In this document: positions 7,881-62,978 of the stretch, one piece after another
Layout: every line of letters starts with the position of its first letter
How positions within the stretch are numbered: the first letter of the stretch is position 1
Source: Acholoe squamosa
Lineage: Eukaryota > Annelida > Polychaeta > Phyllodocida > Polynoidae
Reading direction: 5' to 3'
Assembly: GCA_949317995.1 (NCBI GenBank)
Contig: OX439048.1
Location: 22,387,495 to 22,451,494 of the forward strand
Length of the DNA stretch: 64,000 nt
Position numbers and translations under genes: made by a program
Notes under the pieces: generated by a model
What the model was told of the DNA's origin: nothing
Database searches by the model: none
The model's input: the letters and a program-made list of their open reading frames with translations, nothing else

Positions 7881-7915
<35 letters not shown>

Positions 7916-8086
7916 AGCATCAAAAACTAACACTACTAGTGTCCCTATTCCTAGACCAGACCATATTTATTCCCTCTATCTGCCCCTGGCCACTATACAA
8001 AATACATGTCCTAGCATTTTGTGTCTACAAACATGTCACCAAATGTCCTTCTATGGGGTCTTTCTACGCTGCTGCTATGTATTACA

Positions 8087-39100: not shown

Positions 39101-42100
39101 TAACTATCATATAAGTTACTTTGCTGTCTTATTTACTGGAAAATTTTACTTATGGTCTCCTAATTTCTAAAACCTAGTCATTTCATATATTCGTAGAAGA
39201 GACTGTAACATGCATATTTGCCTTTCAGTGTATACGGTGCTACTCCACCTAAAGGAGACTATGAACTTTGGGGAGTTCCTGATGGCCATCAGAAGCATGC
39301 CCACTGCGCATGCGCTCTTCCTGCAGGTAGGTCCCGACTCCTGTTGCACAAAGGTCATAAATTGTCAAAACCCTCTTAGGTGTCTCTCATTTCTTTACCA
39401 TCTCCGTTGGCATATTGGTACGTTTGACAATCTGTATTGTAGGCTAGCCTTACTGCTACCTTCAAATCACCACTGTTTAAATATCCTGAACCAGGCTGAA
39501 TATAATAATCAAAACCCTGATATGTCCTTGTTGAAGTACTGTCGGGAGCAGAACCGGAACATGTTACGTGACCTCTACTACCAGGAGGATCTGTACCAGG
39601 AAGAGGCCAACTGTAGGGTACAGGAGAGCTATGACGAAGAGGTAGGTCAAGGTTAAACCAAGGGTAATGTGGGGTACAGGAGAGCTATGACGAAGAGGTA
39701 GGTCAAGGTTAAACCAAGGGAAACTGTTGGGTACAGGAAAGCTATGACGAAGAGGTAGGTATTAAAGGTCATACTAAGGGTAACTGTAGGGGTACAGGAG
39801 AGCTATGACGAAGAGGTAGTTCAAGGTTAAACCAAGGGTAACTGTAGGAAGAGGTAGGTATTAAAGGTCATACTAAGGGTAACGGTAGGGTACAGGAGAG
39901 CTATGACGAAGAGGTAGTTCAAAGGTAAACCAAAGGTAACTGTAGGGTACAGGAGAGCTATGACGAAAAGGTAGGTATTAAAGGTCAAACCAGGGGTAAC
40001 TGTAGGGTACAGGAGAGCTATGATGAAGAGGTAGGTCAAGGTTAAACCAAGGGTAACTGTGGGGCACAGGAGAGCTATGATGAAGAGGTAGGTATTAAAG
40101 GTCAAACCAGGGGTAACTGTAGGATACAGGAGAGCTATGACGAAGAGGTAGTTTAAGGTTAAACCAAGGGTAACTGTAGGGTAGAGAAGAGCTATAAGGA
40201 AGAGGTAGGTATTAAAGGTCTATAACTGTAGGGTACAGGAGAGCTATGATAAAGAGGTAGGTATTAAAGGTAATACTAAGGGTAACTGTAGGGGTACAGG
40301 AGAGCTATGACAAAGAGGTAGTTCAAGGTTAAACCAAATGTAACTGTAGGGTACAGGAGAGGTATGACGAAGAGGTAGGTATTAAAGGTCAAACCAGGGG
40401 TAACTGTAGGGTACAGGAGATCTATGATGTAGAGGTAGGTCATGGTCAAACCAAGGGTAACTTTAGGGTACAGGAGAGCTATGATGTAGAGGTAGGTCAT
40501 GGTCAAACCAAGGGTAACTGTAGGGTACCGGAAAGCTATGATGAAGAGGTAGGTCATGGTCAAACCAAGGGTAATTGTAGGGTACTGGAAAGCTATGATG
40601 AAGAGGTGGGTCAAGATCAAACCTAGAGTAATTGTAGGATACAGGAGAACTATAAAAAAAGGTGGGTCAAGGCCAAACCAAGGGTAACTGTAGGATACAG
40701 GAGAATTACGGTGAAGAGTTCAGCTATGAGGGAAAAGTAGATCAAGATTAATGCAAGATTACTGTAAGAGTAACTGTAGGGTAGAGGGGAACAGCTATGA
40801 GGAAGAGTTAACAGTAACCTTCCGAAGTTCTGGTGCAAGATTTCTGCTGAAAATTTAAAAGGTTGAATCAATGTTTAGAAAACATGCGTATAAGACTAGA
40901 AATACTGAACCTGCATGAATCACACTTGATGTTTTTCAGAGGATTGAGTCGCGTCTTAGTCAGCTGGCATCGGCACAGGATGCCTATACAAAAGGCAGGA
41001 ACGACTGGGCTGCCAGGGTAAGGACAATTTATAGCAGCTGTTTTTAACTTATGTAGCAGGATTCCACAAACCATCTTTGACAAATGATGGCCTCATATGC
41101 CCAGGGTGTTAGCTAATACAGGCCTAGGTCAGTCGTATCTGAAACCTCCCCAGCCGGAAGGGGGATGTGGGCAGAGGCAGTGGGGCTCTAAACCCCTGAG
41201 AAAATTCTCTCCCATTTTCTATTACTCAAAGTCACAAAATCATTGATAAGTCATAAGAAAAATTTACAGAAAATCTAAAACAAATCAGGAAATGACTTGA
41301 TGAAATATAGAAAAAAAAAAAAAAAATCAGCCTATTTAGTAATAGAAATTACCTCTTTAAGAAAAACAGAGAGATTTGTAAACCAGGGGCCAGGAGTAGA
41401 AGGCCTCAATTGGACCCTTATCTTATCTCTTATCTCTGATCTTCTCAAAACTACTCCCGACTGACCACCAACTGAATACACCATTCTGTGAATACACCAT
41501 CATCCTTATCAATGAGATCTTAGAGCTGGGACCATAGTAGCATGGTAAAGCTATGTTACCATTTTATTTTCAAGTATTTTCTAACCAAATATGTAAACAT
41601 GACTAATGTATTTCTTACACATTGTTACAACAGGAGACAGAGGATGAGATAAAATTGTTGAAGCGGCAGCGGCGGTTAGAGGAGGAGCTGAACCGGTCAT
41701 ACCTCAACCTCTCCCTACACAAAACTATCTACCAACTGACGCTAGAGAACCAACACAAACATGCACGCCAACTACGCAAGGACTTCAAAGTACCCGACAG
41801 AAGGTCAGTGATTGTCATCTATAGGGGATATAAGTTTTGTAATGTTGGGAGGCCCTTACCTATTTCTTATTGGCTCAGGGACCACCCTGAGTCTATACCG
41901 CCGGGTAGGTGGTGGCATTGGAAAAAAGTCAGTTTTACAATTTTCAATCTCAATTTTCTACAAGAAACAAAGCATGTAAACAAACAAAATTACCATACAT
42001 GAGTAGTTCATATATCAGTCTTTAGTTACAGTAAAGAAAAAAAATCAAAAAACCATCCATGAGTTCATACAAAATTAAGTAAAGAAAAAAGTCATTTCAC

Positions 42101-43403
42101 AAAAATATCTTCTCCAATCCAGTCCTCCATAGGTTTACCTCCGGGCTGGACTTTTCTCTCTTTGTTCCTATGTGTTTCAAAAACAGCATCTAAAAGTGAG
42201 ACGGTTTGGACGCCTTTCAAAAAACGCGGGAAAATTAACCCTGAGCCCTCTGTGCCAATGCACGTCGTTGAATTTTTTTATCTGAAACATTTTAACACTC
42301 ATACTGGAGTTATAAGAATTGCAGCACAAGCTATGCATCTAAAGTATAAATAAAAGAATTTACATTCATGCATACCTACTGTACACCTTGGGAATTGGGT
42401 TCAGTTAGGTTGAAAAGTTAACCTCATTGATATGCATTGTTCGGCAATAAAAATGTTCCCTTAATAACTACATGATAAAGGGACCCTATTGATAAATGAA
42501 ATCTCATGCTCCTCCAAAGAGGCCATCACCATTCATGAAGATTACACTTATCTACACTGCAGGTTCTGGTGGCTGACAATAGAGGCGCTGGCAGAGGCTG
42601 GTGACTGGACAGAACTAGACCGATTCTCAAAGAGCCAAAAATCACCAATAGGATATGAGGTAAGCTGATGCCATTTTCCCTGCTATTTCAGGAATTCTTT
42701 CTATTTTTTGCAGAGATTTCCTGACTTTTGTCAGTCCTTAGATAGCCACGAGTTTATAGATGAATTCTTATTATTTTCAGCCATTCGTAGATGTTTGTAT
42801 GAAACACAACAATCGATTTGAGGCCCAGAAATACCTCCCAAAGGTCTTACCCAAGAATAAAGTCAAGTGCTATATCAAAGCAGGGTAAGTAGCCAACAGG
42901 ATCACTGGACTACTTAACTCTTTGGGAATCGCATAGTGTATAAATGCATAATCATTTAGTGCACTTTAGGTGTTATAAATGCATGAATACAGCCCTTGTG
43001 AGTAACTCGACAGTGCTCATTTATGCATCATGCTGACTGTACAGGGCTGATGCACTCTTAACTAAGGAGTTGGCTTGATGCACGAGTGTAATGCTGGCAG
43101 GTGTCATTGGTGCATCATGACCTGGGCATATAGATTCGTCATGCGGCATCTATAGGGTTAAATAACACTATTCCTAGAAGTCCCAATGCATGGTTGCCAG
43201 CCTCAGGAAATATATAATTCTATATAAAAAAAACTGTGATCTTTGTTCTCCTTTTCAGTCAAATGGAGGAGGCAGCAGAAATAGCATTCCAGCAGAGGAG
43301 TGACGAAGACCTTGTCCTTGTCTTAAACAAATGTTCAACGTCAAACCGAACCTTAGCGGAGAAAGTACAAACCATGCGTGCCCAACTACCCACCAAACGA
43401 TGA
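24156..43403 (+). CDS. VPS16: VPS16, HOPS/CORVET tethering-complex subunit (21 exons, 829 aa)
   Basis: Core subunit of the HOPS and CORVET complexes that tether endosomes and lysosomes before SNARE fusion. Coding exons: 24156-24202, 28128-28216, 28401-28498, 28898-29026, 30068-30212, 30484-30602, 30708-30827, 31229-31284, 31584-31658, 31887-32058, 32390-32515, 37335-37462, 37700-37844, 38697-38940, 39229-39326, 39537-39641, 40940-41017, 41634-41803, 42563-42659, 42781-42884, 43259-43403. All junction phases agree, giving 829 aa (human about 839). Family landmarks read clearly: [95 protein letters not shown]. The first half is the beta-propeller, the second the alpha-solenoid. The ATG sits in AAGATGGC, a TISU-like start. 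Introns 9 and 12 are U12-type, and intron 16 opens with a minisatellite. Poly(A) signal at 43978. Confidence 0.97.
24203..28127 (+). other. VPS16 intron 1 with dispersed repeats
   Basis: A 3.9-kb intron. It holds diverged members of the 187-bp 'cttatcag' family at about 25960-26150 and 26970-27125, an old repeat shared with 17.2-19.6 kb at about 27180-28010, and a short 'aaaaaacttttgacccct' repeat just before exon 2. No nested gene is recognised. Confidence 0.6.
29668..29858 (-). repeat. inverted member of the 187-bp repeat family
   Basis: Reverse complement of the units at 21862-22441, including 'ctggtctggagctggttcca', 'catcatggtatgtcttatcag' and 'aatggtggctccactaggcc'. It lies in VPS16 intron 4. 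Confidence 0.85.
30944..31178. mobile_element. TIR element, TACCGTAATCTC family, in VPS16 intron 7
   Basis: Left end TACCGTAATCTCCCGCGTAT, right end CTACGCGGGAGATTACGGTA, 235 bp. Its interior 'ggccaaacaaatgcct' matches the copies at 45859 and 48003. It ends about 50 bp before the exon 8 acceptor. Confidence 0.9.
31659..31886 (+). other. U12-type AT-AC intron (VPS16 intron 9)
   Basis: No usable GT donor follows exon 9 before an in-frame stop. Instead ATATCCTTTTT follows GTCAA, the canonical AT-AC U12 donor. The 3' end has a branch-point match GACTTAAC (31870-31877), about 10 nt before AC. Splicing GTCAA to ACACTCATATGAC restores the frame (WVK-HSYDS) at the conserved VPS16 segment before LVPEVDG. 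Length 228 bp. Minor-spliceosome splicing is strongly implied. Confidence 0.9.
32551..32827. mobile_element. TIR element, TACCGTAATCTC family, in VPS16 intron 11
   Basis: Left end TACCGTAATCTCCCGCGTAT, right end degraded (TGCGCGGGTTTGCGGTA). The interior is the reverse complement of the long subfamily at 8346 and 50975 ('ctactgaatgaattttcaaa'). Confidence 0.85.
32828..34500 (+). other. VPS16 intron 11, upstream of the nested gene
   Basis: Low-copy sequence with one poly-G run near 34122. It probably includes regulatory DNA of the nested homeobox gene, but no specific sites are called. Confidence 0.4.
34504..34515 (+). promoter_or_regulatory. TATA-like box of the nested homeobox gene
   Basis: CTATATATATAAG lies about 45-50 bp before the ATG at 34557. 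With a start site about 30 bp downstream, the 5' UTR would be about 20 nt. A dedicated TATA promoter supports independent transcription from inside the host intron. Confidence 0.5.
34557..35906 (+). CDS. intronless TALE-like homeobox gene nested in VPS16 intron 11 (449 aa)
   Basis: Predicted DNA-binding transcription factor encoded in one uninterrupted frame. The homeodomain spans about residues 172-238. It has the TALE-type three-residue extension ([14 protein letters not shown] at 200-202) and a recognition helix with WFANKRNR at 224-231, keeping the invariant W, F, N and R. Residue 50 of the domain is Ala rather than the Ile usual in TALE proteins. The N-terminal part has two related helical segments ([10 protein letters not shown] at 94 and [10 protein letters not shown] at 134). 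After the homeodomain, residues about 290-430 are repeats of a 9-12 residue DQNSFSPT motif. Candidates are the amphioxus-specific TALE family (I recall it as Atale) or spiralian SPILE genes; I cannot decide between them. The lack of introns suggests a retrogene origin. Poly(A) signal at 36827. Confidence 0.9.
   Translation: MASIVEHLNSYMAPNSYDLLRLFNHPMFSDLQATLKKDVSQTSIPYSLVDRSLAGDAQNSQTQLPPAKMSMVVEDASLQAEFRQLASLSNPKISELEMFYQTQSASIVTQRADAILNLQTSFTGTPEQFSTKLSEINAFYDGQQSHLMGRINTSLQLVKASLPVGVAPPGGRPKKSRTRMLSSAAVDMMKEWYESHIDNPYPTDDEKASLADRGGISVAQVKAWFANKRNRTLNTRPKRQIYKLQQQMVTNHCASLGLDADSGPGGNGPMRGADVAYLIDEISDLISFNPTADQKVINPAAADHNALCSTVDQKPLNPAMGQHSFNSTVDQKAFRQVVELHAFTSTTDQNSYRYNPTVGQKPLSPTVNQNSFSPAVDQESFSQTLDQNSFSPKLDQNSFSPTVDQNSFSPTQDQNSFSQVDQDSFSPTLDQHVPETFQTPTFDDVVSAF
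35430..35860 (+). repeat. 30-bp coding tandem repeat in the homeobox gene
   Basis: Imperfect repeats of about 27-36 bp built on GACCAGAATTCTTTCAG(C/T)CC encode the DQNSFSP repeats of the C-terminal tail. The last eight or so copies are the most regular. Confidence 0.88.
36827..36832 (+). terminator. poly(A) signal of the nested homeobox gene
   Basis: AATAAA about 920 bp after the stop codon, in an AT-rich 3' UTR. It is the only clear signal before VPS16 exon 12. Confidence 0.55.
37463..37699 (+). other. U12-type GT-AG intron (VPS16 intron 12)
   Basis: The donor reads GTATCCTTT, the exact U12 GT-AG consensus. The 3' end has TCTTTAAC (37682-37689) about 10 nt before AG, with no polypyrimidine tract. 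Splicing joins ACTGA to ACTTCAAGC (TYTE-LQAL), matching the family. Length 237 bp. It is the second minor-spliceosome intron in this gene. Confidence 0.9.
37845..38696 (+). other. VPS16 intron 13 with an inverted SINE-like repeat
   Basis: Towards its 3' end (about 38470-38539) it reads 'cccacttttggacgttaaac' then (AATC)n. This is the reverse complement of the repeat at 63165-63250. 'agctgctgtccatatgcgtgg' near 38110 may be part of the same or a related SINE. Confidence 0.55.
39642..40815 (+). repeat. exon-tail plus splice-donor minisatellite (VPS16 intron 16)
   Basis: About 19 units of 55-62 bp start right at the exon 16 donor. Each repeats the end of exon 16 (AACTGTAGGGTACAGGAGAG, CTATGACGAAGAG), its donor GTAGGT, and the first 20 or so intron bases (GTCAAACCAAGG). 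Units diverge towards the 3' side. Many keep a usable GTAGGT. Read on in frame from the exon, the intron soon meets a stop (VGQG, then TAA), so the array is not coding. Confidence 0.95.
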
Positions 43404-43977
43404 AAAAAAAAATTTAACATGTTATACCATATGAATGTCTACAACCATGAAGCCCACTAATAATTTCTAGATATGAAAGTCAAATTCGCTTGAATGTTTG
43501 TACACGTATAGTAAACTACCGTGAAACTGAAGGAGACCCACAACCTGATTGGGCCATTCTGTGCAGTTGAGAAGGACCTGGCAAATCTTAGTGTAAAAAT
43601 GAATAATCATGGTGCTGAATGAATGTTAAGTCTGATGAAGGAGAATCTGTATAAACTCATGAATATATATAAGTGGAGGCAATGGAATCATTCTGTAAAA
43701 TCTACTGAACGCCCCTCCCTTGTTATTCGCATGAAAGCTGTACCCATGAAATGGTACCCCACAAATAATGAATAATAACTTTATCAAAACCTGCTGTAGA
43801 ATTAAAATTGGAATTTGCCCTGTTTGGCCTGCTCTCTTTAGCTACATAAATGTGTATAATGCATGTACAGATGAATGTATGGATAACCTTAATTGTTGTA
43901 TACTTGTGTATATATTGAGTTCTATGAACCATGTGCAATATTTGTGAGATTATTTCTAAGATCATGCTACTACTGTA

Positions 43978-43983
43978 AATAAA
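43978..43983 (+). terminator. VPS16 poly(A) signal
   Basis: AATAAA 575 bp after the VPS16 stop codon, with a T-rich stretch downstream near 44040. Confidence 0.7.
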
Positions 43984-44200
43984 GCTGTGATCAAATACAC
44001 TGAATGGTCTCATTTTCCCACACACTTATACTTTTTCCATTTTTTTTTTTCCTTTTCTTAGAATAAGAAATATTCCCTCAAATTCTGAATTTTATCGCCT
44101 TGATTATGAACAAATGAGGATTATAGTGCAACCGACGTTTCAGGCTTTGCTGCCCTTTAAAGCCAAGGAAAAGTCAGTTTAAAGGATGTTTTATAAGTAA

Positions 44201-44404
44201 TAGGTAAATTCTCTCGTATAAGCCGGGGCTAGTACCAGAACCCAAATCAGTCTGGCTTATAGGACCAGCCCAAGGAAGGGGTGTGACTTACAGGAGGGTA
44301 TTTGGCACTATAGAACAATACTAAACTTGCAATTTTCAAGCCTAAGGTGCGGCTTACAGCCCATTCCAAAGTCAGGGGTGCTGCTTATACGAGAATTTAC
44401 GGTA
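44201..44404. mobile_element. TIR element, TAAATTCTCTCGTATAAGCC variant
   Basis: Ends are TAAATTCTCTCGTATAAGC and GCTTATACGAGAATTTACGGTA, with 'ccttataag' motifs between. A diverged relative of the TACCGTAATCTC elements, between VPS16 and the KCNMB-like gene. Confidence 0.72.
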
Positions 44405-45015
44405 GTATTTCTCAGCTCAACTTTTGATAAACATTGGTAACCTTGACTATATAGGTACAATGTATATTTTGCCCTGAATCTATGACCTCTACATGCATCA
44501 AGTCGCATGTAGGTCAGGTATGTAAGGTCAGGGAGACCAGACCTATAAACCTGTACAAGGGTAACTTAACAAGGACAGCAACAAGCAGGGGGACATGGAG
44601 TTAGCACCTGTAATGTTACATTAACACTGATTTAACATGCCAAAATTGTAGTTGCAGTGTGGCCTACAGTGCCCAGTCCGTATGCTTGTACCATACACTG
44701 TATACATGTTAGACACTCGAATTTTTAATTGGAAGAAATATGAGACTGTAGAAGAGGCCGACTTTGGAACAGAAGGCCCTCTGTCTGATACACACGGGGC
44801 CAGGCGGATATGGCCACAGGATGACGGGCATAATGTAAAATAAGAATTCTCAACCTAATGCCACCTAGGCATCTAAGGATCTGGACTAAGTAAAACTACA
44901 AAGAACAACGCATTTTATGGGATCAGATATGTGACTTAAATCCGAGGCTATCATACCCTTGTGTATTGTCAAGGGTGTGAATTTGCACCTTAAAGTTTTC
45001 CACTGTAAAAAAACC

Positions 45016-46487
45016 ATGATGAGTGAGGCACTGACCAGGTTTCCCTATGGGTGGATAACGGTGACAAGCTTCTGTCTGGTGCTCTTCAACCTTATCGCAT
45101 TATGCGCTATGGGATACTTCATCGTCAAACCCAACCTCGCGGTCAGCGACTTTATCCCTGCTAGGTGTTCCTATCAGAAAGTGAGTGTTCAGATCCTATC
45201 ACATTAAGTACTACCAGTAAGGACAAAACTAATGATGCGATATTATGCTTTTCCCCTGGGTTAGTAAACTTTGTCATTCTACAAAGATTTAAGTATCTAT
45301 GAGGGAGACAATGGTTGTTAAACGCCACTTATATGGCTAGGGTCATGTTCATGGCAAGGAAACCTTACATTACACATCAGTCCTTAGATGAATTTGTCTG
45401 AAATTGTCTATAACTTCATGCTACGGCTTATACACAGGGTTTTACGGCAATTATTCTAATGCTTCAGACCATTGACTTGGGCCCATACCCGTGTACATGG
45501 TGTGAGGGGTCTGGACGTCATAGCGCCTGTCACCAGTCCACGTTCCCTTGTCGACAAGTCTGGGTTTCTGCTAGCACCAGGGACAATAATACTGCACCAT
45601 TTACTGCATATTTACATGCCAACATACGCCATCTCCACCTGAACAAGGAGGTACTTGTCTCTTTGTGTTATCAAATAGATACAGTTTGAATGCAGATTTA
45701 TTGTTAAGTTAAAGCTGTACTTGTACGTCATTTTGATCCTATACTGTATAGGGTCGATAAAATTCTAAATCTCATTATAATGTATTTATGCATTATGCAG
45801 ACCTTAAAATGCTAAGTGTCTTATCATTTAAGTATTTGGGAAATTGATCAGGAAATGTTACCTTTAATCTCCCGCGTAGAAGACGCGTCTTCTACGCCAA
45901 ACAAATGCCTGGTGCATCTTATAGGATTATCTGAAGTTAGGGGTGTCTTGTACGCGGGGTAATTTTACTATAGAAAAGTATTAAACTTACAGAATTGTGC
46001 CCTAAGAGGTGCGTCTTATACAGGAAACAACCATTGGCAAGTTAGGGGTGCGTCCTCTACACGCACCGCGTCTACTACGCGGGAGATTATGGTAGTTTGG
46101 TTTTTGACATTCCAGTGTTCATACATGGCCTGCGACAAATATGGTAGTGAAGCCAAAGTTGTATCCGGTCTCCATCACTGGATCGAGAGTCCAATGACAA
46201 CCTGCTTCATTAAATCGGATGGTTCACATCGGATTCTCGGGACACGTGATTATAATGAAAACGCAGTCATACACAGCCTTCTGTGGCCCACTCTCGGAGT
46301 AATTGTTTGCACTATTACATTGCTATTAAGGTATCTATATCACAAGAAGAATTTTAGTTCCATTAACCAATGGCATATGTGCGAGTCCTACACTATTGTA
46401 AATAGATGCAGTTGTTGTGACACCGAGCCAACCCTAAGTACAATGGAAGGCAAAGGCCACCCACTAGACACTTTTCAAAGATATTAA
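45016..46487 (+). CDS. BK channel (KCa1.1) auxiliary beta subunit, KCNMB-like (3 exons, 239 aa)
   Basis: Auxiliary subunit of large-conductance calcium-activated potassium channels, modulating gating at the plasma membrane. Exons: 45016-45180, 45468-45650, 46116-46487; all junctions are phase 0 with GT-AG sites. The protein has two membrane segments (about 13-37 and 169-193) around a large Cys-rich extracellular loop (Cys at 51, 64, 67, 76, 83, 117, 122, 146). Family marks are RCSYQ after the first segment, CSYMACDKYG for the vertebrate CSYIPKCG, and VIHSLLWPT leading into the second. Length fits vertebrate KCNMB1-4 (191-279 aa). The N-terminus is short, with no inactivation-ball sequence. 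No upstream in-frame ATG was seen, so the start is the first of two adjacent Met codons. The paralogue cannot be assigned. Confidence 0.9.
45295..45392 (+). mobile_element. SINE fragment in KCNMB-like intron 1
   Basis: 'caatggttgttaaacgccactt', 'aggtcatgttcatggcaa' and 'ttacattacacatca' align with the 5' half of the SINE-like copies at 11184 and 14724. Confidence 0.65.
45859..46094. mobile_element. TIR element, TACCGTAATCTC family, next to KCNMB-like exon 3
   Basis: Left end TACCTTTAATCTCCCGCGTAG, right end CTACGCGGGAGATTATGGTA. The element ends only 21 bp before exon 3, so almost nothing but the polypyrimidine tract and AG lies between it and the exon. The intron 2 branch point may therefore lie within or at the edge of the element. 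Confidence 0.88.
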
Positions 46488-47313
46488 CCAGTAGAATACA
46501 TTCCTGCAAAACCTCACAATTAAGTCAAAACTTCATGAAATAGACTTACGGTGTAGGAGCTCCCATGGGTTGAATGCCGCTTATGTCTAAGATTTGGCTT
46601 GTATGCAACCATAGATATTATGTTTGTGTCTCTGATCACTAATCCAATAACCTTGATTTCCATGTAGACAGGAAGTTATCGTCGATCTTTAGAATTATTG
46701 TCCCACTTTTATACGATTCTTTTCCCATGATCTCCTAAACCACTTTTCCCACTTACCGGGTATATAATCCTCACATGTTAAGGTCTAACCACTATCAAAT
46801 GTTCATATATCGACACAACACTATCATCCATATTTTCGCTTATTTAATTTTTCATCTTAAACTTGCACACTCCTTACAAAAGTAGATAATATAAAGTACG
46901 TCATAACTCTCATTCATGTTTCATGCCATCCATACAAGAGAGCGTAAACTTATGGCATAGATGTATTATGATTGATCAGAACAAATGAGAATTGATCGAT
47001 GCCTCCAAATACAAAACACAAAATGACAAGTAAGTTAGACGCCACAAGATGATTTCAATAAATATTACCAACAGAACATATAGATTCAGTAATATATCAC
47101 TTCTTGTGTGTTCAGCTTCTCGAGTCATACCGATGACGCCATCACATGTGACGTAATGATCAGCCGTATGACGTCATCACAATTCAAATAGTCAGTTAGG
47201 GCGTCACTCGCAACCAACAGCGCCCTTTGTCCACAGGTTTGGTATCTATTACAGTGTATCCTGTCCTGAGAACTCTTTTCTTGGGCACTGCCAGTTAGCG
47301 ACACAAAAGTTAA
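46488..47313. other. convergent 3' ends of the KCNMB-like gene (+) and CCT5 (-)
   Basis: 826 bp between two stop codons of genes that converge. It should hold both 3' UTRs. No strong AATAAA assignment was made for either. A cluster of TGACGTCAT-like sites lies at about 47130-47180. Confidence 0.5.
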
Positions 47314-50300
47314 TTAGATGCGGTCTGCGGGGGCACGGATGTCATCAATCTTGAGGATCATCTTGACGACTTGTGAGGCCAGCATGATCTGCTGCTTCTT
47401 GGAGAGAAGTGTCTCGATGACGTTCTGCGCCTTCATGTCTGTAAATTGACACAAACTGATTTATCCATCTTTTCAACCTCAGGGGAAAGAAGCAAAATTA
47501 TGCCAAAATGTGGCTTACATGCCGGTGTAGCTTATACACAGCTTTAAGCAACTTCAATCTGACCTTCCTTTTATCATGTCTATACAAAATAAAGTACGGG
47601 TTGTGGAATAACAGGGTACAATATTTACATTTTCTCAACTAGATGTAGACACCAATGCCATTTTCAAATATCATTTAAGTGAGTTATAAATGCCAGCCTA
47701 TCTCAAAACCAGAAAGCCTCTACTTACCACTGTTACCAGTCTGCATACAGTCTACACCCAGTCTGGGGTTGTTCTCTAGGACCTGGCGTGACTTGACATC
47801 AGCGACCGTGTTGATTGGCGCTAGACCGCTGTTTTCTGCTAGGGCCATGGGGATGGCTTCCAGAGCCTCACTGAATGCACGCATGGCGTACTGCTCCAGT
47901 GTAGAAACCTGAAAGACAAAAATGTCATTCCTATACTATGGACCAAAATACAGGTCGATGAGTCTTTAAAATGCCCCAAGTGTTTAGCTACAGACTTGGG
48001 CCTACCGTAATCTCCCGCGTAGAAGGCGCGTCTTCTACGCCAAACAAAATGCTGCTGGGTCTTATACGCGGGAGGTAAATTGCCTTGAGTTTGGGGTGCG
48101 CCTTATACGCGGGTTTTTCCAACATCTCATTTGGGAAAATGCGCCGATGACAGCTTGAACTCATAGCGCCAGCACCGCGGCAGACCGGGAGGTGTCGATG
48201 CGCTCGACGGGGATAAGGCCCACCATGCGCCGATGACAGCTTGAACTCATATAGCCAGCAATTCGGCAGCCAGGTCGCTGTAGATTTGCTCGGCGGGTTT
48301 GACACCGACCGTCACACCGTGTGCTGATGACAGCTTGAACTCATATAGCCAGCACCGCGGCAGACCGGGAGGTGTCGACGGGTGCTCGGCGGGTTTGACG
48401 CCGACCATGTGCCGATGACAGCTTGAACTCATATAGCCAGCACCGCGGCAGACCGGTCGCTGTAGATTTGCTCGGCGGGTTTGACACCGACCGTCACACC
48501 GTGTGCCGCTGACAGCTTGAACTCATATAGCCAGCACCGCGGCAGACCGGGAGGTGTCGACAGGCGCTCGGCGGGTTTGACGCCGACCGTGTGCCGATGA
48601 CAGCTTGAACTCATATAGCCAGCACCGCAGCAGACCGGTCGCTGTAGATTTGCTTGCCGTTTTTTTACGCCGACCGTGTGCCGATGACAGCTTGAACTCA
48701 TATAGGGGGGTGGGGAGGGGGGGCGCCTTCTACGCGAAACAGCCCCCCTGTGAGTTGGGGGGGCGCCTTATACGGGGGTTTTTCCGGGAATTGATCCAGA
48801 AGAGGTATGTGCGCCTTCTATGTGAAAAGGCCTTCTCTGAGTTGGGGGGGCGCCTTCTACGCGAGCTGCGCCTTCTACGCGGGAGATTATGGTATCATAC
48901 AAAATATTCTATTTCCAAGCTATATATCTATTGGTTGCATAAACGCGGTCTTCCTCTTTTTTTTTCTAATACTAATATTCCCTGTGGACTGCAACATTTC
49001 AGTGTATCAGTATACTTTTAAATTCCAGTATGTCACTTACCTGGTCGGCCTTTTTGCTAATAGCAACGGAGCAGGCAATCTCTGCAGCTCCACCACCGTA
49101 CACAATCTTGTTCTCACGTACTAGATTCCTGATGACACAGAGAGCGTCATGAAGACTCCTCTTGGCTTCCTCAATGATCTGTATTAAAAAGTGTTACATG
49201 TCATATATACTTGTTGCATACAATGTAGTTTAAAGCAGCCAACCACACTTTCAAGAATTTTAATTCAATGGTTTCAAAACAAATCCTGGATACAGATATA
49301 TTTCTTGGTTTTGATTTGAAAAAAGAAATCTAGCAAAATGTAGAAGTTCATAAGCAAAGGTTCACGAGTGTAGATTACAGCGAGTGTTTTCACAAATGCA
49401 GTTTGGCTGCTGTATCATATGATGCCCATAGGGCGCAGTGCAATGTCTCAATCATTGTAAACAACTCATGTCTAATGCTATGGAGATATGACTGAAAAGC
49501 AAATAGCTTACCATTTTGTTTCCACCACGGATAAAGATTGTGACAGCTCTGGAGTTCTTACATTGTTCGATAACCAACATTTTATCCTTTGTCGTACCAA
49601 ATGTCAACTCGCGTACAGTGCCAGCATGGCCCAACTTGTCCTCTGAAAGCTCCGAGAACCTGGGTACAATACGGCCTCCTGTGGCGATGGCGATCAACTG
49701 TGGAAAAAATACAGATTCTCAGTTGTTTTTTATTGTTTTAAGTAGCAGTGTGCAATAAGTGGGCCATAATATACAACACAATTACAACGTAACAGCCAAT
49801 TTCTTTCTGTGGTACATCTTCAGTTTCAAATTTAGAAATCTAATTGCTATAATACAAGGAAATGCTGCAATCTTTACCTCGATCTCAGGTCCTCCGACCC
49901 ACCGCACGGCAGGAAGGCTCTTCTGTAGTAGTAGATGGTTGGCCTCGTCATCAAAGCCCCATTGACAAATTACTAGATTAGCACCCTTGTCCTTTACCTG
50001 TAAAAAACAAATTAAATTTTTTTTTAGTTTTCTGCTCATGTAATCATATAGTGATAACATGGCCATTTGATCCATGTGCTTGAGTATTTGCATTGTCAAA
50101 ATAGTGCTGTCTCATTAGCTGTCAGATATTACTTACGTAGTTAACCATTTCATCAAACTTCTCCTTCTCGTATTCACGGAGTTTGCGGTATTGTTCTATA
50201 GATGAGACATCCAACTTGTGCTTGGTCTTGGGTTTTGGGGGCTCGAATGGACAGGTGAGGATAGCGATCTTAGCATCTTTCACTTGCTGTTAGAAAGCAA

Positions 50301-52922: not shown

Positions 52923-53222
52923 CTTGGAATATTTCTAATATCCCGGTTAAGAAATAGGTTGCGGATAAAGAAGGATGTCGGCCGATTTGTTTAAGATGCC
53001 GGCTCCGGCATGAGCAGAAGATTCCAGAGTTTTATGATGGCCGCCGGAAGTCACGCAATTTCTCGCCGGGTCTCGCCTGGTACGAGACTACAGATGTAAA
53101 CATTGGCCATAGCAACTGGGGGAAGGTCCTGTAAGACCGAGTTTGTTTTTTTCAGTTCTTACAGCGTTTTAGTTTACTTTTCTCCCTCACATTGTATCCT
53201 GAGTTAGCTTAAGATTGTCAAG
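52923..53222. promoter_or_regulatory. divergent promoter between CCT5 and SPMIP11
   Basis: Only 300 bp separate the two start codons, which point away from each other. It contains GGCCGCCGGAAGT near 53038 (ETS-like GGAAGT next to a YY1-like GGCCGCC) and no TATA box. SPMIP11 starts in AAGATGGC. A shared, CpG-containing bidirectional promoter is inferred. Confidence 0.6.
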
Positions 53223-55690
53223 ATGGCATTTTTCGGTCTTTCGCAGCTAGGTTATCAGGACACGATACGGGAACACTTGCACAAGCCAGGGTTTTCTCCA
53301 CAACACTTGTACCGGAGCGGAGAGTTCCGCAACCCTGATGCTGTCAAATTGCCGCCGATTGTATCTCAGTCTGACTTGCCACAAGCCTCCATCGTCCCAA
53401 TTGATCAGGTGTCAGGCTATGGCCCAGGGCCACAGGGTTCATATGTGGAGTACACAAGGCAGAGAACAAAGCACATCAGGGCCCCCAAAGGTAAGCCAGA
53501 TATTGCCAATATTGTTGGGGAATGTTTATTGTAATTTCAATTTGCATCTTCTTCTTTTCTTTTTTTTTCAAACTTCTTTATTTTAACCTGGTACAGGAAT
53601 GCTCATGCCGGAGCCGGCATCTTAAGGAATAGGTTTAACTGACTTTTAACTGACCAGTGGCAGTGGGACCCTGTTACCGGGTAGTGCATCCTGCCCATGC
53701 CCATCATGGCATTGGTCGTCATAATGCATGAATGCAGCCCTGCTGATTAACTTGCAAGGGCTGCATTCATGCATCATGCCGACCATATCAGCAGGGCATT
53801 ATGCCTTATGCCATGGGAATGATACATTCCCAGAGGGGTCAGCATGATGCTCCAATGAAGTGCTGGTGAGCAGATTCCCCGGCACTTCATTGGTGTACTG
53901 GTAGAGCACCCAAGCGGGCTCACATCCAAAAGGCTGAAGAGCGTCCCCCAAACTATATTAGCGTGGGTGTGCTAAAACAAGCCAATGTGGATTATGGTAT
54001 ATCTACCGTACCATAAAACCTCTCTAACCGTATCGTCATGTTTAAGCGCCAGGATTTGAATAAGTGCCAGTCGCAAATAAGCGCCGGGGGTACAAGGGCC
54101 ATGAAATCTTTCTTAAGCACTAAAACTACATTCTGAATGAGCACCAGACTTGTGTTAGCGCCGGGGGGAATGGGGCCGCCAAATCAAAGACAGCTGAGAC
54201 GCTTAAACACGACAATACGGTAGGCTTAGCCTTAGAAGCCGACCAAAATTTTTTATCTTAACCCAAATTTAGCTTAAAGCATTTCCTCAGAGAAGAGGGT
54301 TGGTTGGCTTCTGAGGGAGGGGAACTAATGCACTTTAGCGCAGGGGCGGATCCGACCCCCTGAAAATAGCCTTAGTATGACTCTTTAACTAGGCAATGTG
54401 GCACAAGACTCAAGCTGCGCCCCCCCCCCCCCGACCACCCCTTCTGGATCCGCCCCTGTAGCGGGTGCTATTGCTAACCCTTTACCTACTAACCCTACCC
54501 TAACCCTTAACGTGATGCAATGTATGGTATTCTGCGATGTGCGCCCGTTAAAGTGCCTTCTACTTAGGGAGTGATCATTTTTTAACAACAGGGGGGGGCT
54601 GGTGGGTTTGCGCGCGGATGCGCGAAAAAAAATTCGACCCCCCCCTCTCGAGGGGGTAAAATTTTTTCGACCCCCCCCCCATAAGGGACAAAAATCACAC
54701 GCGAACGTCCCCTTTTAGCCTATAATAACGCGCAGGGTTTTCCACTGAAAACAGGTGAAATTATTTTGACCCCCCCCCATCAGAGGTATTGAAAAAATTC
54801 TGACCCCCCCTGGTCAAGGGGTTGAAAAAATTCTGACCCCCCCCCTCAAACCCACCAGCCCCCCCCCCCCCCCCCCCCCCGTTGTTAAAAAATGATCACT
54901 CCCTTATGGGAAGTTTTGCAATAACCATGTTTACCATCATCTAAGAAAAGTTGCAAACTATCAAACCAGTGGTTCACAGTAGCAGACCCAGGGGATGGTC
55001 CTGGGGGGGGGGGGGCATTACCCTGGCCTTCTTATTTTATTACATATTATGACATTGTCATGTTGGTCCCCTGACCAACGCACATCACCTCTATGACATC
55101 ACTGTTGTAAGTTGGTCCTCTGACCATCACCATGAACTATTGTATATCTATGGTATATCTGAATTGATGACAAAACATGTTAATGACGTAAATGATACAT
55201 TTCCTTCTCCAGAGCCCAATGACATTTATCGGTATCCCTTGGTAACATCGCATGAGGTTGCCCGCTGGAGAAAAGATGAACCAGTACACAAGAAGGAACC
55301 CTGGATGTGTGTCCCCCGATACGCTCATGTAAACAGTGAAATGACCAGGTAAGAACATTTTATACACTCCAGACTTGAGTGTTTGCATATGCTACCACCT
55401 ACCTAACTATCTCTTGTTTTAAACACATCTTAAAAGGAAAATTCTGGATGTACCCCTGTAATGTTATTCAGTGAAGATATGCTTTATGACAGATATGATT
55501 TCAAATTTGTCAAAAAATATGAAATAGCAAGTGATGCAAAAAAAAAGGGTTACATTCATTTCAAAATATGCAAATTATAAACATTTTAACAGTTTGCAAA
55601 ATATTTGTAAGTTACTCATGCCAACCCTTGTAAAATTCCAGATTCGTGGATGAGATGAGTCTTACAAACAGGGAATTCTCGCTCTTCTAA
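53223..55690 (+). CDS. SPMIP11: SPMIP11 (TEX49), sperm microtubule inner protein (3 exons, 150 aa)
   Basis: Homologue of vertebrate TEX49/SPMIP11, a small protein inside axonemal doublet microtubules of sperm. Exons: 53223-53490, 55213-55348, 55642-55690, with GT-AG sites and matching phases. Recognisable blocks: the N-terminus MAFFGLSQLGYQ (vertebrate MAFFNLYLLGYQ), KLPPIVSQSD, the region around IYRYPLVTSHEVARW, the PWMCVPRYAHVNSEMTR stretch, and the C-terminus FVDEMSLTNREFSLF. The alignment rests on recall of the human protein. Length is close to the mammalian protein. The start is the first ATG, in AAGATGGC. AATAAA at 55915 may end the transcript. Confidence 0.85.
53695..53895. repeat. GCATCATG-type dispersed repeat in SPMIP11 intron 1
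   Basis: Palindromic motifs 'cataatgcatgaatgcag', 'ctgcattcatgcatcatgc' and 'gtcagcatgatgc' recur here. The same vocabulary appears near 6592-6790, 12210-12310, 36430-36525, 42920-43140 and 57205-57550. Confidence 0.7.
54025..54223. mobile_element. TIR element, TAACCGTATCGTCATGTTTAAGCG
   Basis: Inverted ends ACCGTATCGTCATGTTTAAG and CTTAAACACGACAATACGGT, with 'aagcgcc' motifs repeated inside. A relative of the fragment at 1115-1270. In SPMIP11 intron 1. Confidence 0.85.
54564..54906. mobile_element. long-palindrome TIR element with poly-G/poly-C arms
   Basis: The left arm reads TTAGGGAGTGATCATTTTTT then AACAACAGGGGGGGGCTGG. The right arm is its complement with a poly-C run of about 23 and ends AATGATCACTCCCTTA. 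Arms are about 50 bp, and repeated 'aaaattctgacccccccc' lies between. One-ended relatives ('tagggagtggtcattttt') are near 18970, 21133 and 26650. Confidence 0.9.
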
Positions 55691-57834
55691 AATATTCAAA
55701 CAAAACGACAGATCTACCAGGAAAAACAAGTTCAATATTATGAATCATGTACAACTGAGCGACCACCTCACGTCATCGACTGTGCTGATAAAACCCAAAG
55801 CAATGACTGGACTCTTATTGATACATAAGTATCTAAAACTCAACTGAGAAGTTCATGGTGCACATGCTTAGTTTTATTTTTTAATCATTTTTTTTAATAG
55901 GCAATGTCATTAGAAATAAATCATATTTAGCACATGTATTTTGTATATAGTAGACTTTAGAGACATACAAATAATCGTTGTTCAAAAACGATTTTTGGAA
56001 ATCATTAAATGGATGGATTTAGCAGATACATAAATCTTCAATGCCATTTCACACCAAACACTGTGATAGATAGACAAAGACCGACCTCATGTTTGTGCCA
56101 CAAAGAAGAATGAATGCTGTTTGAATGAATGGGTTGTATAGATGATGGTCAAAAGCTATTATGTGTTAAATTTTCCGTTATAGTTTGATGTGAATTGTAC
56201 ACACCACTGAAAGATGCATATAGGTAAAGAGTAATAAATATATGACAACCAAAGATACAGGTCTGTTTTTATCTTTGCGTAGTAAGTTTTAAAGTGTTGA
56301 TACTCATTAGGCCAAACCCAAAAAAAAATTTTTTTTTTTTAAGATTTTCTTGGCGTCCAATGATTCCTTGTTCGAAAAGTGAGGCGAGCGAAAAAAATTT
56401 ATTTTAAAAAAAATTTGCCAAACATCACAAAGAGAAAACTTGTAGAAAGTGAAGCGAGCAAAATCCGTAGACAAGATTTTTTTCAAAGAAAAAAAAATTG
56501 TATTTCCGAAAATATGGAGAGGGAAATCTGTAGACCAACTTATTTTTTTTTGGTGTGGCCTTAGATCTTTACATCTTTAACAGTTATATTATTTGTAATA
56601 CTCCAGTTCTAAGAAACCTCAATGTATGTGTTTGAGTCATGTATTTAAAAGACTTAAACAAATTGATCAATCATCACATTTCTAATTCAAACAAAAGACC
56701 TCATTTCAAATAGGTACACATCAAGTAAAATCTTAATCTGATTTACAGTATACAGCCATATAAAAATTACGGCGGATTTGAAATATACAAGTATAAATAT
56801 AGATCTTTATAGAAAAAAAAAAAACAATTCTACAGACGTATATCACATGTTTAACATACAAGAAACATACTACTGTACCATAATTACAGACTTATCTATA
56901 GTCATTATACACTTCATGCATTGTTTTTCTGATGATATCCCTGAGCATTGAGCACTCTTTTTCCATATTTGGTTCTACCATACAGTTTGGAAGTCATCTG
57001 ATTGTATATATACATACAAAAACATTTCAATGTTAACATTCATTTGTTTACTATCATCCTGGTAATAATTCATTAAAAACTAAATTAACATAGAGTAAAC
57101 TTTACATAATACTTGAATGGAATATGCAGTTATGTTGCATTGATACAACCTTGACAAGTATAAATTGCCAGTATAAATTAAATATGCATCACCCGTGACT
57201 CTTTAAGAACTGATACATTCCTCCGATGGATGGCATGAAGCATTCATACCACATCGGTGCATCACGGCAAACAAGGATCAAGCCAAGATGTCTCATGCCC
57301 TGTGTTAAGGGTTAAAGAGCGATTACTTTGTACATAGCCGTGACATAAACCCATAATGACCCAACCTACATTGAAATACACCATCATAGTCATGTATTCT
57401 ACCATCACAGACACTTCTTTACATAGCCCTTCATCGAAAATTCGCAGAATGCCTGATAATTAACATTGATTGGTGCATCATGCTTACCATTCAATCCAGC
57501 AGGGCTGATGGGGCCGCATTCATGCAAATGTAATGACTCAAGAGCGCAGAACATCAAAGCACTATGCGGCACGTAACAGTCTAAAGATTAACTGAATCGA
57601 TGACTTAAATGCACTAAAGCCGTCATGTAGTCTGGAAGCCTTTAATATGTATTAGTTATTAAGAATACACCACTGACCAGCAGATGTCACCTTCTGCTCT
57701 TTCACTTCTGCAGAATCCTGTTTAGGCTTTACAGAATTTACTAAAAACCTACCAGTAATACATTTTTGGTATGATCATTATCTATGGTTACTTTAGACAA
57801 AGCATCATTGACTTTTTACAAAGGGTAAGTCAAG
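55691..57834. other. convergent intergenic region, SPMIP11 (+) and AGMO (-)
   Basis: 2.1 kb with both 3' UTRs. AATAAA at 55915 and 56233 could end SPMIP11. A repeat at 56305-56566 ('ccgaaaatatgg', 'tagaccaacttattttt') is shared with 13690-13765. GCATCATG-type repeats at 57205-57550. No coding sequence. Confidence 0.55.
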
Positions 57835-60800
57835 TTAATCAGTCTTTTTAGCATTGACCTTGATGGACCGGAAGCAATGAAGCAACATGGCAATGACAGA
57901 AAAGAAGAATATGCCGCGTACTAGATACAGTGATGCTGGGCATGCAGAGCCGACCACCGAGCACACATAGGCATCAATCACCAACATCAGCACACAGCGG
58001 GCAATCTCCAGCAGCGGTGCATACCACCTGAGACAAAATGGACACAGAGTTTTAGTTTAACATTTCTAAATAAGTGTTAACACTCTAAATCTAATAAGTA
58101 GCCATACCCCCACACCCATGAAATTATATATCCTTCTGTGCCTTACACAAAATCGGCAAAGTCAGGGTGCACCTTAAAGGCGGGGTAAATTAAATTAAAT
58201 TGTGATGTGTCTTAAAACACCTTCTCTATTTTCGCGCCAAATATATCACAAAATTTTATTTGGAGATTAAAAGATTTATTTCTATCTTGCCAAAACAGAT
58301 GCCGCAGACCGGCGACTATAACTCATTAAGACCCTGAGCCAACAAGGTTCTTTGGTAGGTGCCACGGCACTTACTTTCATAAATAAACCCAAAATGTGTG
58401 CCTTATACAAGGTTCACCTTATACCTGGGAGGCCACTCACTGAAAACCTTTGAAAATTCGGAAATTGTCGTTATTTTCTCAATTTCTAGTAGAAAATGCT
58501 TACAGGAATTACAGCCCAAAATTCGGAATTTCTGAAAAATTAGGAAAATGGCATCTCTGGCCTTATACACAAAGCTTAGGGTAGATGCATGGCACTGGTG
58601 ATAATGGTAGTCCCACTTACTTGTGTTCAAACAGATAGCCCAGGTTGGTGAGTGTCCACAAGATGTACAGAGTGAAGAAGAGAACCGTCCACTGGGACAG
58701 ACCCTATACACAAAAAACATTTGTATTTGTAGGTGAATCTTGAATGGTTATCATTGAAATCATATGACATTAGTGGTAGTCGTTTTACACGAAAGTTGGA
58801 GGACCTTCCAGGCACAAAACTTTGCTTAAAATACTGGAACTAAAAGTCATACTCTAAATTTATATAATAAATGTCTAATGTAAATGTTCTTCATAGGTTT
58901 GAGAGTCAGTCATTCAACTCATTGTAGCCTCCTCCCCCTATGGTTCTAGACGGCTTTTCCCACACTTAGCGATATAGAGCCTTTGAAATATAATAGCACT
59001 ACTCACTGACTTGGCGGCGTGTGTGAGTGTGTCTTGTCCAATGACGGCGAGAACCAGGTGCATGTAGCAGTACAACTTACCAAACAATGGCAGTGACTTG
59101 TCATACTTAGGCTGTGGTGACTTGATCTGGAGGGAAATGTATACTGGGAGTTCATCAATTACATGAAGTTGGCATGATGCAAGCATTCTGTACTGTAATA
59201 GCCTGAGATATATTCATGCATCATGGCCATATAAGAGCATTACAAAGGGTATTGGCATAGGGGAATACATCATTGATCGATCATAAGTATGCTAAATCAA
59301 AAGGATTACTTAAAATGTATATCAGCTCCACAAGAAGTATAAAACTTTCATCCCTTGATATAAATTAATTATAATAAGAAGCAGAAGCAGAAATTATATT
59401 CATTCAGCGGACAATAGCCGTGTATTTGTAAACATTTAGGGACAGAAACGATGAAGATATTCAGTAAATGGCTCATTACCAGTGGAATATCCTCAATCTC
59501 GCCCATTCTTGGCTTGCCTGGCATCCAGCCGGGACCTTTGACGAAGACGGAAACCTTGTTACCGATACCCTCCATAGCCCACGCAGTCGTTAAGATGTGC
59601 TTCCAGTGACACAGCTATACAGAAAATGTGAAAAATCAGAAAAGGTGAGAAATATTATTTGATATGTCCCGAAATCTATTGATCAGCCATATCACACACC
59701 AAACTTATACCGAGGCAGTGGATTGTCATTGCTGAAGCTGGTCACCAGCGATTATCACTGATAACAGTTATCAGATAAGTACCATCTCCCAAACCTTCCT
59801 CCCACGAGAGGTCCACAGAGAATATTTGGGACTTTTTTATTGGCTGATAATTAATCCCTCTAAGTCTGTATATGGTTCACCCGGGATATATATTATTAAC
59901 CAATCAAATGGTTCCCTGTATTCACTGCAGAATTTTTTGGGTACATTATGTAACACATGGTACCCATCATTTTGGTTGTTATCGGTGCTTATCTAGCCAG
60001 GTGCCGGATTAAGCAATGGCCGTTCCACTAGGCGTCAACACTAAGTCCTATACCCTCACCTGTGTGTAAATAGGGTCCCAGGAAGACAGCGGATGGACAA
60101 GCCCATACACAACTTCTTCTGACTCGGGTTCAAAGGTGCCAAAGATGCGGTCCCAGATGATGAGAACTCCTGCATAGTTCTTGTCGATACAGTAACGGTT
60201 ACGGCCATGGTGCACACGGTGATGGGACGCTGTGTTAAGGATGTATTCCAAAGGTCCAAGAGTTCGCACAATCTAAACAAAACAATGTCATTCTAAAGGA
60301 CACTGACACCTGCAGCACATGCTTTCACCCAAAATATGCTTGGGCAGTGACTATTATCTTTCAGCATGCTCTCCTATATAAGATGTACTTATGTGAAAAT
60401 GTGCTGTATTAACTCAGACAAGTGCAATGAAATACCAGTAGTCACATGATGGGCTACTGTGTTAATGGAGGACTGGTAGAAGAGGTTAAACTGGACGTGT
60501 CTCACTCACCTCTGTGTGCATCCTGAACTGGTAGAGGAGGTTAATTAAACTGGACATGTCTGTCTCACTCACCTCTGTGTGCATCCTGAACTGGTAGAGG
60601 TTAAACTGGATGTGCCTCACTCACCTCTGTGTGGATCCAGAACTGGTAGAGGAGTTAATACTGGAAGTGTCTCACTCACCTCTGTGTGGATCCAGAACTG
60701 GTAGAGGAGGTTAAACTGGAATTGTCTCACTCACCTCTGTATGAATCTAGAACTGGTAGAGGAGTTAATACTGGAAGTGTCTCACTCACCTCTGTGTGGA

Positions 60801-62978
60801 TCCAGAACTGGTAGAGGAGTTAATACTGGAAGTGTCTCACTCACCTCTGTGTGGATCCAGAACTGGTAGAGGAGTTAATACTGGAAGTGTCTCACTCACC
60901 TCTGTGTGGATCCAGAACTGGTAGAGGAGTTAATACTGGACGTGTCTCACTCACCTCTGTGTGCATCCTGAACTGGTAGAGGAGGTTAAACTGGACGTGT
61001 CTCACTTACCTGTGTGGATCCAGAACTCAGGCCACCCTTAAAAATATGTTCGTTTCCTGTCGAGAGGCCTGGTGAAATTTTTTTGTGAGAATGGAAATTT
61101 TTTTTCCTGAGTTCTGAAACAAGATTTATTTTTTTTGCCTTTAGCACAAGAAACTAGGTTTCTAATCACAAAATTTTAAAATGTAATGACAAATTCATGC
61201 CGTCCCCCTTTCGAAGTTCATAACAAATAATAATATTTTCCTTAAAAAATATTTTTTCTCCCCTCCCTCATGGGTCTGAAAAATCCCACCCTCTGTACAG
61301 GAAACGGACATATTTTTAAGGGTGGCCTGGTAGAGGAAGTTAAACTGGACGTGCGTCACTCACCTCTGTATGAATCCAGAACTGGTAGAGGAGATTAAAC
61401 TGGATGTGTGCTATAAAATGGGATGGCGGCACAAAGAAAGCCATTGGCAGGTAGAACATCTGAAAACAAAGAACAAAAACAGGGTGTTCTGAATAGTGAG
61501 CATACTCCTGTAGTTTTGGTCCAGATTAGATTTTTCACATACCAATCAATCTAAATCACTCTGCAGATATTGGATTATGTTTTGGATTTAAGTTCACTAC
61601 ATGGAGTGTGTATTCCTATGGATGCGGCATCTAATAGTTGGGTATATCATTTAGATTTAAGCACGGGGATTTAAGTGACATGGGCATTACTGAAAATAGA
61701 CCTGTGAAATTTTAAAGCTTGACTTACCCATGAGGAGTAGCGCTGTAGTACTGACTGTCTGAGGGCCGTGCCCAGGTTATAATCCTCTGAGCTGTGATGC
61801 ACCTGGTGAGCCGCCCACATGAAGTTTATTTCTGTATTGTAGACAAGAAAAGAGGTTATATCAAAGTAAGTGAAGACTAATACTTGGCATATAAGACACA
61901 CTCTGAGATTAAGGAAAGGCTATAAGGCATCGATGTGGCTTAATCTGCGTAGATGTGGCTTGATCTCGGGACGTTTAGTACTTATCTAATGTGAAAATAT
62001 CCTCCCTCCGCTGCACACCCTGATGTTGGCCAAAGACACGACTACGGGCTATCCTTGTATGTAAGTTGTGCTTTATGCGCAGGGTTATGGTATATTCCTA
62101 TTAGATAAAGAGACCAATGTATGCTCCTTTGCCTCAGCCCACCACCTAAACTCTTGTCACCAACTCTACCAAGCAACACAGCGAGGAAGGGCAGTACCTG
62201 ATATGGGAAGAGGGGAAATTTACAATGTGCAGCCCTGTGCACCCAGTAGGTAAGAAGTGAGGGGACTTACCATGTGCAGCTCTATACACCCAGTAGTAGC
62301 CCAGGTCCACCAGTAGTAAGGCCAGTAGCACAGTAAGAAGTGAGGGGACTTACCATGTGCAGCTCTGTACACCCAGTAGTAGCCCAGGTCCACCAGTAGT
62401 AAGGCCAGTAGCACAGTAAGAAGTGAGGGGACTTACCATGTGCAGCTCTGTGCACCCAGTAGGTAAGAAGTGAGGGGACTTACCATGTGCAGCTCTGTAC
62501 ACCCAGTAGTAGCCCAGGTCCACCAGTAGTAAGGCCAGTAGCACAGTAAGAAGTGAGGGGACTTACCATGTGCAGCTCTGTGCACCCAGTAGGTAAGAAG
62601 TGAGGGGACTTACCGTGTGCAGCTCTGTACACCCAGTAGTAGCCCAGGTCCACCAGTAGTAAGGCCAGTAGCACAGTAAGAAGTGAGGGGACTTACCATA
62701 TGCAGCCCTGTGCACCCAGTGGGTAAGAAGTGAGGGGACTTACCATGTGCAGCTCTGTACACCCAGTAGTAGCCCAGGTCCACCAGTAGTAAGGCCAGTA
62801 GCACAGTAAGAAGTGAGGGGACTTACCATGTGCAGCTCTGTGCACCCAGTAGTAGCCCAGGTCCACCAGTAGGAAGGCTACTATCCAGGTAATGGGGGAC
62901 TCCCAAGGAAGCTCATACATGCGGTAGTTGTTGTAGATGTAAATATATGCAGCTGCCTCAATGTTCCTCAGGAGCAGG
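57835..62978 (-). CDS. AGMO: AGMO, alkylglycerol monooxygenase (C-terminal 364 aa; 5' end outside window)
   Basis: Membrane-bound, tetrahydrobiopterin-dependent di-iron enzyme of the endoplasmic reticulum that cleaves ether bonds of alkylglycerols. Exons in transcript order: 62827-62978, 61728-61831, 61364-61459, 60060-60272, 59480-59614, 59007-59126, 58621-58703, 57835-58027; phases fit throughout. The His clusters of the fatty-acid-hydroxylase superfamily are present: HRAAH, HQVHH ([15 protein letters not shown]) and HHRVHH ([15 protein letters not shown]), followed by FKGPGW-type [13 protein letters not shown]. Hydrophobic segments include [17 protein letters not shown] and several near the C-terminus. 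Human AGMO is 445 aa, so about 80 N-terminal residues are missing and probably lie beyond 64000. The start of the first exon seen (62978) is the likeliest of two acceptors. Two introns open with exon-derived minisatellites. Confidence 0.95.
60470..61027 (-). repeat. exon-tail plus splice-donor minisatellite (AGMO, after exon 61364-61459)
   Basis: About ten units of 54-60 bp. On the minus strand each repeats the end of the upstream exon (AACCTCCTCTACCAGTTC, then the GGATTCATACAGAG-like tail), its donor GTGAGT, and the first intron bases (GAGACACTTCCAGT). Most copies keep CACAGAG followed by GTGAGTGAG. The array is separated from its source exon by the TIR element at 61028-61329. Confidence 0.93.
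61028..61329. mobile_element. TIR element, CAGGCCACCCTTAAAAATATG
   Basis: Ends CAGGCCACCCTTAAAAATAT and ATATTTTTAAGGGTGGCCTG are inverted repeats of about 32 bp that continue into GTTCGTTTCCTGT/ACAGGAAACGGAC. It interrupts the minisatellite exactly within a unit ('ccagaact' | 'gtagagg'). A partial copy is at 13140-13230. Confidence 0.92.
62221..62826 (-). repeat. exon-tail plus splice-donor minisatellite (AGMO, after exon 62827-62978)
   Basis: An exact 130-bp higher-order repeat made of one long and one short piece. Each piece repeats the end of the exon (CTACTGGGTGCACAGAGCTG then CACATG), its donor GTAAGT, and intron start CCCCTCACTTCTTAC. The long pieces also copy about 40 bp more of the exon. 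In the long copies the catalytic-motif His codon CAC has become TAC (HRAAH to YRAAH), while the real exon keeps His. No acceptor AG precedes the copies, so they are probably not exons. Confidence 0.95.

Follow-up and report, generated by a model that had tools for sequence, protein, structure and literature searches.

Minisatellites spanning 5' splice sites in introns of VPS16 and AGMO of the annelid Acholoe squamosa

Within a 64,000-nucleotide stretch of the genome of the polynoid annelid Acholoe squamosa (contig OX439048.1, positions 22,387,495 to 22,451,494 of the forward strand; hereafter the window), we observe three tandem arrays, one in an intron of VPS16 and two in introns of AGMO. In all three, the repeat unit consists of the last bases of an exon, its 5' splice site (donor), and the first bases of the intron. 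We consider it probable that these are ordinary minisatellites that were born across an exon-intron junction and have been tolerated since the first donor, the one nearest the exon, is the donor used. The conserved protein comes from the first-donor join and not from the downstream copies of the donor (decoys) that were tested, and donors are not enriched in local repeats over intron sequence.

Three arrays that begin at exon ends

The arrays were detected with Tandem Repeats Finder (TRF; scores of 1190, 838, and 1012 for VPS16 and the two AGMO introns) and with unit-by-unit lists, and they lie at or near the places where a sequence-only reading of the window had put them (Table 1). The first unit of each array is the exon end itself. 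In VPS16, the unit comprises the last ~33 exon bases, the donor, and ~22 intron bases, and comes in versions of 57 and 60 bp. Of the unit lengths of 57, 55, and 130 bp given in that reading, 55 bp stands, 57 bp is one of the two VPS16 versions, and 130 bp is the sum of the 83- and 47-bp units of AGMO. Between the AGMO exon end at 61364 and the 55-bp units lie first one partial unit and then a 302-bp element; as this element splits a unit, the array probably used to run on directly from its exon. The geometry proposed earlier (exon end, donor, and intron start, placed beside the exon or one 302-bp element away) is borne out, as is the independence of the three repeats, whose units are mutually unrelated as judged by eye.

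Homology backs the identities of VPS16, of AGMO, and of CCT5, which lies between them. The highest identity among the 120 listed CCT5 relatives is 96%, followed by about 85% to several others and to annelids (Capitella, 85%; Paralvinella, 84%), and AGMO identities among the listed homologues reach 67 to 68% at the top, with 61% to Capitella. These values fit an annelid host. The genome size is 1.48 Gb.

Table 1. Arrays, their parent exons, and the exons beyond them, in window coordinates
Feature	Position	Strand	Basis
VPS16 exon with copied 3' end; end at 39641 reads GACGAAGAG, then donor GTAGGT from 39642	39495..39641	+	exon scan; gap-free junction against P0001
VPS16 donor-spanning minisatellite, 57-/60-bp units, ~19 copies, two most distal degenerate	39609..~40820	+	TRF, unit lists
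VPS16 exon beyond array	40940..41017	+	P0001 alignment, decoy translation; end read from sequence
AGMO exon downstream of 55-bp array (IVRTLGP...)	60060..60272	-	read from sequence; alignment, decoy translation
AGMO donor-spanning minisatellite, 55-bp units, ~10 copies	60472..61027	-	TRF, unit lists
302-bp element bounded by 21-bp inverted repeats, inserted within first unit of AGMO 55-bp array	61028..61329	.	
AGMO exon (...FWIHTE) with copied 3' end; end at 61364 reads ATTCATACAGAG, then donor GTGAGT, its G at 61363	61364..61460	-	unit lists, homologue alignment
AGMO exon downstream of 83/47-bp array	61728..61831	-	homologue alignment
AGMO donor-spanning minisatellite, 83- and 47-bp units (130-bp higher-order unit)	~62220..62852	-	TRF, unit lists
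AGMO exon (...YYWVHRAAH) with copied 3' end; end at 62827 reads GCTGCACATG, then donor GTAAGT, its G at 62826	62827..62978	-	exon scan, unit lists

An assembly artefact, in which repeats in long reads were collapsed or expanded, is the least likely of the explanations that we considered. The copies are diverged, and an inserted element interrupts one array (AGMO 55-bp). In addition, the likeness of the VPS16 copies to the exon drops with distance, the distal copies being the least exon-like (rank correlation -0.49, p = 0.04, with the two degenerate distal copies included); in the AGMO arrays we find no significant distance trend (-0.49, p = 0.18, and -0.12, p = 0.75).

The probable donor in use and the state of the decoys

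Joining the exon-proximal donor of VPS16 to the exon at 40940 gives a gap-free alignment to P0001 with 63% identity. Around the two AGMO array junctions, 119 and 118 of the 120 listed homologues align without a gap within 8 residues, as do 117 of 120 around an AGMO control junction that has no array. The VPS16 array junction is gap-free over the same distance in 14 of the 22 homologues that cover it (38 listed). Every decoy tested leads to a premature stop (16/16 in VPS16, 9/9 and 8/8 in AGMO, 33 in total), and only the first donors, among the donors examined, keep an open frame. We infer from this conservation that the exon-proximal first donor is the one used.

An anchor search, which misses truncated copies and thus yields minimum counts, finds at least 18 downstream copies in VPS16, at least 9 in the AGMO 55-bp array, and at least 9 in the AGMO 83/47-bp array. 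The donor scores as high as the true one in 12/18, 9/9, and 8/9 of these copies, respectively. Such retention of strong donors in most copies is one point in favour of selected decoys, that is, extra donors kept for U1 recruitment, for exon definition, or for buffering donor mutations; another is the diversity of the donor window, which in each array lies below the mean of the unit (0.042 versus 0.113, 0.000 versus 0.073, and 0.014 versus 0.040). The donor columns are nonetheless not exceptional, since many other windows of the unit are equally conserved: ordered from the least diverse window upward, the donor window stands at 10 of 52, 12 of 47, and 17 of 39 (ties counted; based on 16, 9, and 8 decoys). 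Moreover, use of any decoy tested would cause a premature stop, and the decoys therefore cannot serve as backups. Selection for splice-site redundancy, which the sequence-only reading had offered as a possible mechanism, is not supported by these comparisons, and we regard selected decoys as quite unlikely. The state of the decoys looks like ordinary minisatellite turnover, with neither purging nor clear retention, and the arrays look tolerated rather than useful.

Donors, acceptors, and the intron background

A junction 36-mer was counted as spanned by a repeat when a local copy matching at 27/36 or better lay no more than 4 kb away. A first set comprised 42 exons, predicted or read by hand, from the window and its left neighbour. 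The predictor had been trained on genes of the window itself, and splice sites were scored with generic animal matrices; of the 39 predicted exons, 6 that looked of low complexity, isolated, or transposon-like on inspection were removed, and 9 read by hand were added. In this set and in the 22-mer comparison below, some hand-read exon ends were placed 1 to 3 bases off, including the AGMO ends at 61364, 60060, and 60272 and the VPS16 exon at 40940; the AGMO end at 61364 was detected as duplicated despite its offset. Local copies are found at 3/42 donors and 0/42 acceptors, the best acceptor match being 23/36. For background, 5.1% of 3000 random windows have a local copy, as do 334/5443 intron windows outside the three arrays (6.1%) and 759/5998 with the arrays included (12.7%). 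Donors exceed the rate of exon interiors (16/918), and no donor excess over the intron background is found in the window and left neighbour (3/42 versus 6.1%).

A second set, covering 44 of the 79 listed myosin-head exon places, gives no local copy at donors (0/33 and 0/11, together 0/44) or at acceptors (0/32 and 0/11, together 0/43); neither set is a random sample of the genome. With intron-side 22-mers instead, and with myosin junctions kept only if their splice score exceeded 4, the 86 exons contribute 79 donors and 71 acceptors; copies occur at 3/79 donors and 0/71 acceptors, compared with 7.4% and 7.0% of 1948 background windows. Acceptors may be depleted of local repeats, on small numbers and non-independent windows. 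We also scanned 329,309 local bases for triple-donor patterns at spacings of 30 to 60 and obtained 9 matches from 2 arrays (a neighbouring 51-bp array and the AGMO 55-bp array). None of three control motifs gave a match, and neither did an acceptor motif or its control; these counts are too few to use. At window-relative 142818-143062, the donor motif of the 51-bp array looks like a dispersed element and not like an exon.

The claim that such repeats sit always at donors and never at acceptors holds for the window. As a rule it is not supported, with three cases and a one-sided sign probability of 0.125 for 3 donors against 0 acceptors (simple arithmetic), with arrays at both kinds of boundary in amphioxus (PMC3087553), and with a candidate array at an apparent 3' splice site about 64 kb past the window. 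This candidate array lies in L009 (~4363-7919, window-relative 128363-131919) and has ~50 units of 69 bp, reported by TRF as 25.9 copies of a 138-bp dimer. It ends exactly at ...TTCCCTTACAG, followed by a 71-nt exon-like segment that has one open frame and whose acceptor and donor are both strong. The unit contains a decoy acceptor and little or no exon sequence. No exon adjoining the 71-nt segment was found on that strand, and we treat the array as a candidate only. Nor do the exon sets bear out a genome-wide habit at the density first suggested, given 0/44 myosin donors and a donor rate not above that of introns.

These results also bear on mutational targeting, by which donor junctions would be hot spots of tandem duplication, for example through R-loops at the 5' splice site or breaks there that are linked to transcription. 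Three unrelated units within 24 kb, all at donors, would fit such targeting, as would a fourth, weak array of ~4 × 22-bp units that starts exactly at the donor GTGAGTTATT of the C6 myosin gene (L031, reverse strand, 1418-1494); the latter, at GTGAGT, lies on the intron side only and below the threshold of the spanning test. The donor rate in relation to introns, the myosin donors, and the presence of the same kind of array at acceptors in amphioxus (PMC3087553) all speak against it, and we judge mutational targeting unlikely.

A dispersed element found at window 42997, L023 3201, L030 1374, and other places has a GTGAGTAACTCGCCA-like core flanked by TGCATGAATGCAG and its complement. Similar tandem repeats (GCCGATGACAGCTTGAACTCATA...) occur in a CCT5 intron (window 48143-48705, periods of 88/182 bp) and a myosin intron (L029 1241-1638, periods of 86/172 bp), as if carried by a dispersed element.

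Intron growth through a donor-carrying transposon or introner could draw on this element, which carries donor-like (GTGAGTTACTCGCCA-like) sequence and one copy of which has a 15-mer in common with a unit of the L031 myosin donor array. The units in the window, however, include the coding end of the gene in which they lie and bear no relation to one another, and the sole transposon-like part is the interruption of the AGMO array (61028-61329). When VPS16 40000-41000, the one array sequence covered in this way, was compared with the whole genome at the DNA level, only its own locus was returned (very common words skipped). We therefore find this origin very unlikely.

Other repeats and open frames were seen in and near the window. 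A large, diverged C-rich tandem array (CTACTGCCCC...) with periods of 17 to 255 bp occupies window 2524-5554, and a 455-codon stop-free frame with an internal 27-bp repeat lies between VPS16 exons (window 34539-35903, plus strand). On the minus strand of the neighbouring sequence (window-relative 70979-81876, L003 to L004), long open frames resemble a retroelement polyprotein.

Likeness to amphioxus mirages and a proposed origin

The sequence-only reading had named amphioxus mirages as a parallel, and PMC3087553 and PMC3902484 bear this out. There, mirages are minisatellite-like tandem duplications of exon-intron boundaries, both 5' and 3', that differ in length between haplotypes; many but not all units retain splice signals, and splicing is reported as undisturbed (PMC3087553). 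They are described in Adh3, the globins BflGb6 and BflGb9, troponin C, and PGBD5 (PMC3087553, PMC3902484), of which PGBD5 is added by PMC3902484, where Adh and troponin C are cited, with unit sizes of 10 to 72 bp in Adh3 and 150 to 160 bp in the globins (PMC3087553, PMC3902484). As in those mirages, the tandem unit here spans the exon-intron boundary, and many though not all units retain the AG/GT signals (12/18, 9/9, and 8/9). As to the two boundary types, we see three donor arrays in the window and one candidate acceptor array in L009. As to regular splicing, first-donor joins match conserved proteins and the decoys tested would yield stops. Unlike in the cephalochordate examples, the host here is an annelid, the arrays have ~10 to 19 copies, and the cases in the window are at donors only. 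By structural features, the present arrays would class as mirage-type minisatellites. Literature searches of open-licence papers returned no annelid mirage.

Two further systems invite comparison. In the Rogers model, introns are gained via tandem duplication of AG/GT-containing exon sequence (cited in PMC3087553; see also PMC4974935). The duplications here likewise carry splice signals; unlike in that model, we see no new intron, and existing introns are enlarged. Earthworm metallothionein genes have intronic minisatellite clusters (PMC12783039), and so share with our case large tandem arrays inside introns of annelid genes, whereas the portion of that text at hand describes no units with an exon end and donor.

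Under the explanation that we prefer, a small tandem duplication, arising by replication slippage or unequal exchange, would happen to span an exon-intron junction and would then grow and homogenise like any minisatellite. A donor-spanning duplication would be tolerated because the donor nearest the exon is transcribed first and is the one that the spliceosome pairs with the distant acceptor; with the first donor committed, later copies would leave with the intron. By this reasoning, a downstream duplicate donor spares the mRNA if the first donor is committed first, and an upstream duplicate acceptor that is used first would not. Duplications across acceptors or within exons would probably be harmful more often, and such harm could yield a donor bias without donor-directed mutation, for which the number of cases is too small to be telling.

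Several points weigh against this explanation. The use of the first donor is argued from protein conservation, and of the 22 VPS16 homologues that span the junction, 8 are gapped within 8 residues and give no support. Ab initio prediction supplied several of the 42 exons, and the background windows are not independent, since many of them come from a small number of arrays. Selection for redundancy would likewise leave strong donors in all decoys of the AGMO 55-bp array. Finally, a candidate acceptor array as close by as that in L009 is not predicted by a strict filter that tolerates donors.

A broader version, which we find doubtful, is that minisatellites of this junction-spanning kind recur in animal lineages far apart from one another and that the survivors are filtered by co-transcriptional, first-come splicing, so that donor arrays drift and acceptor flanks are kept clear. 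If this is true, a genome map of such arrays would read out which splice site commits first. Counting donors versus acceptors across the genome would tell mutation bias and selection apart. Introns in which no fewer than 9 to 18 near-identical decoy donors occur, all accompanied by a stretch of exon, are natural tests of donor choice, and the presence of an amphioxus-type array in an annelid suggests that such arrays are more than a cephalochordate oddity.

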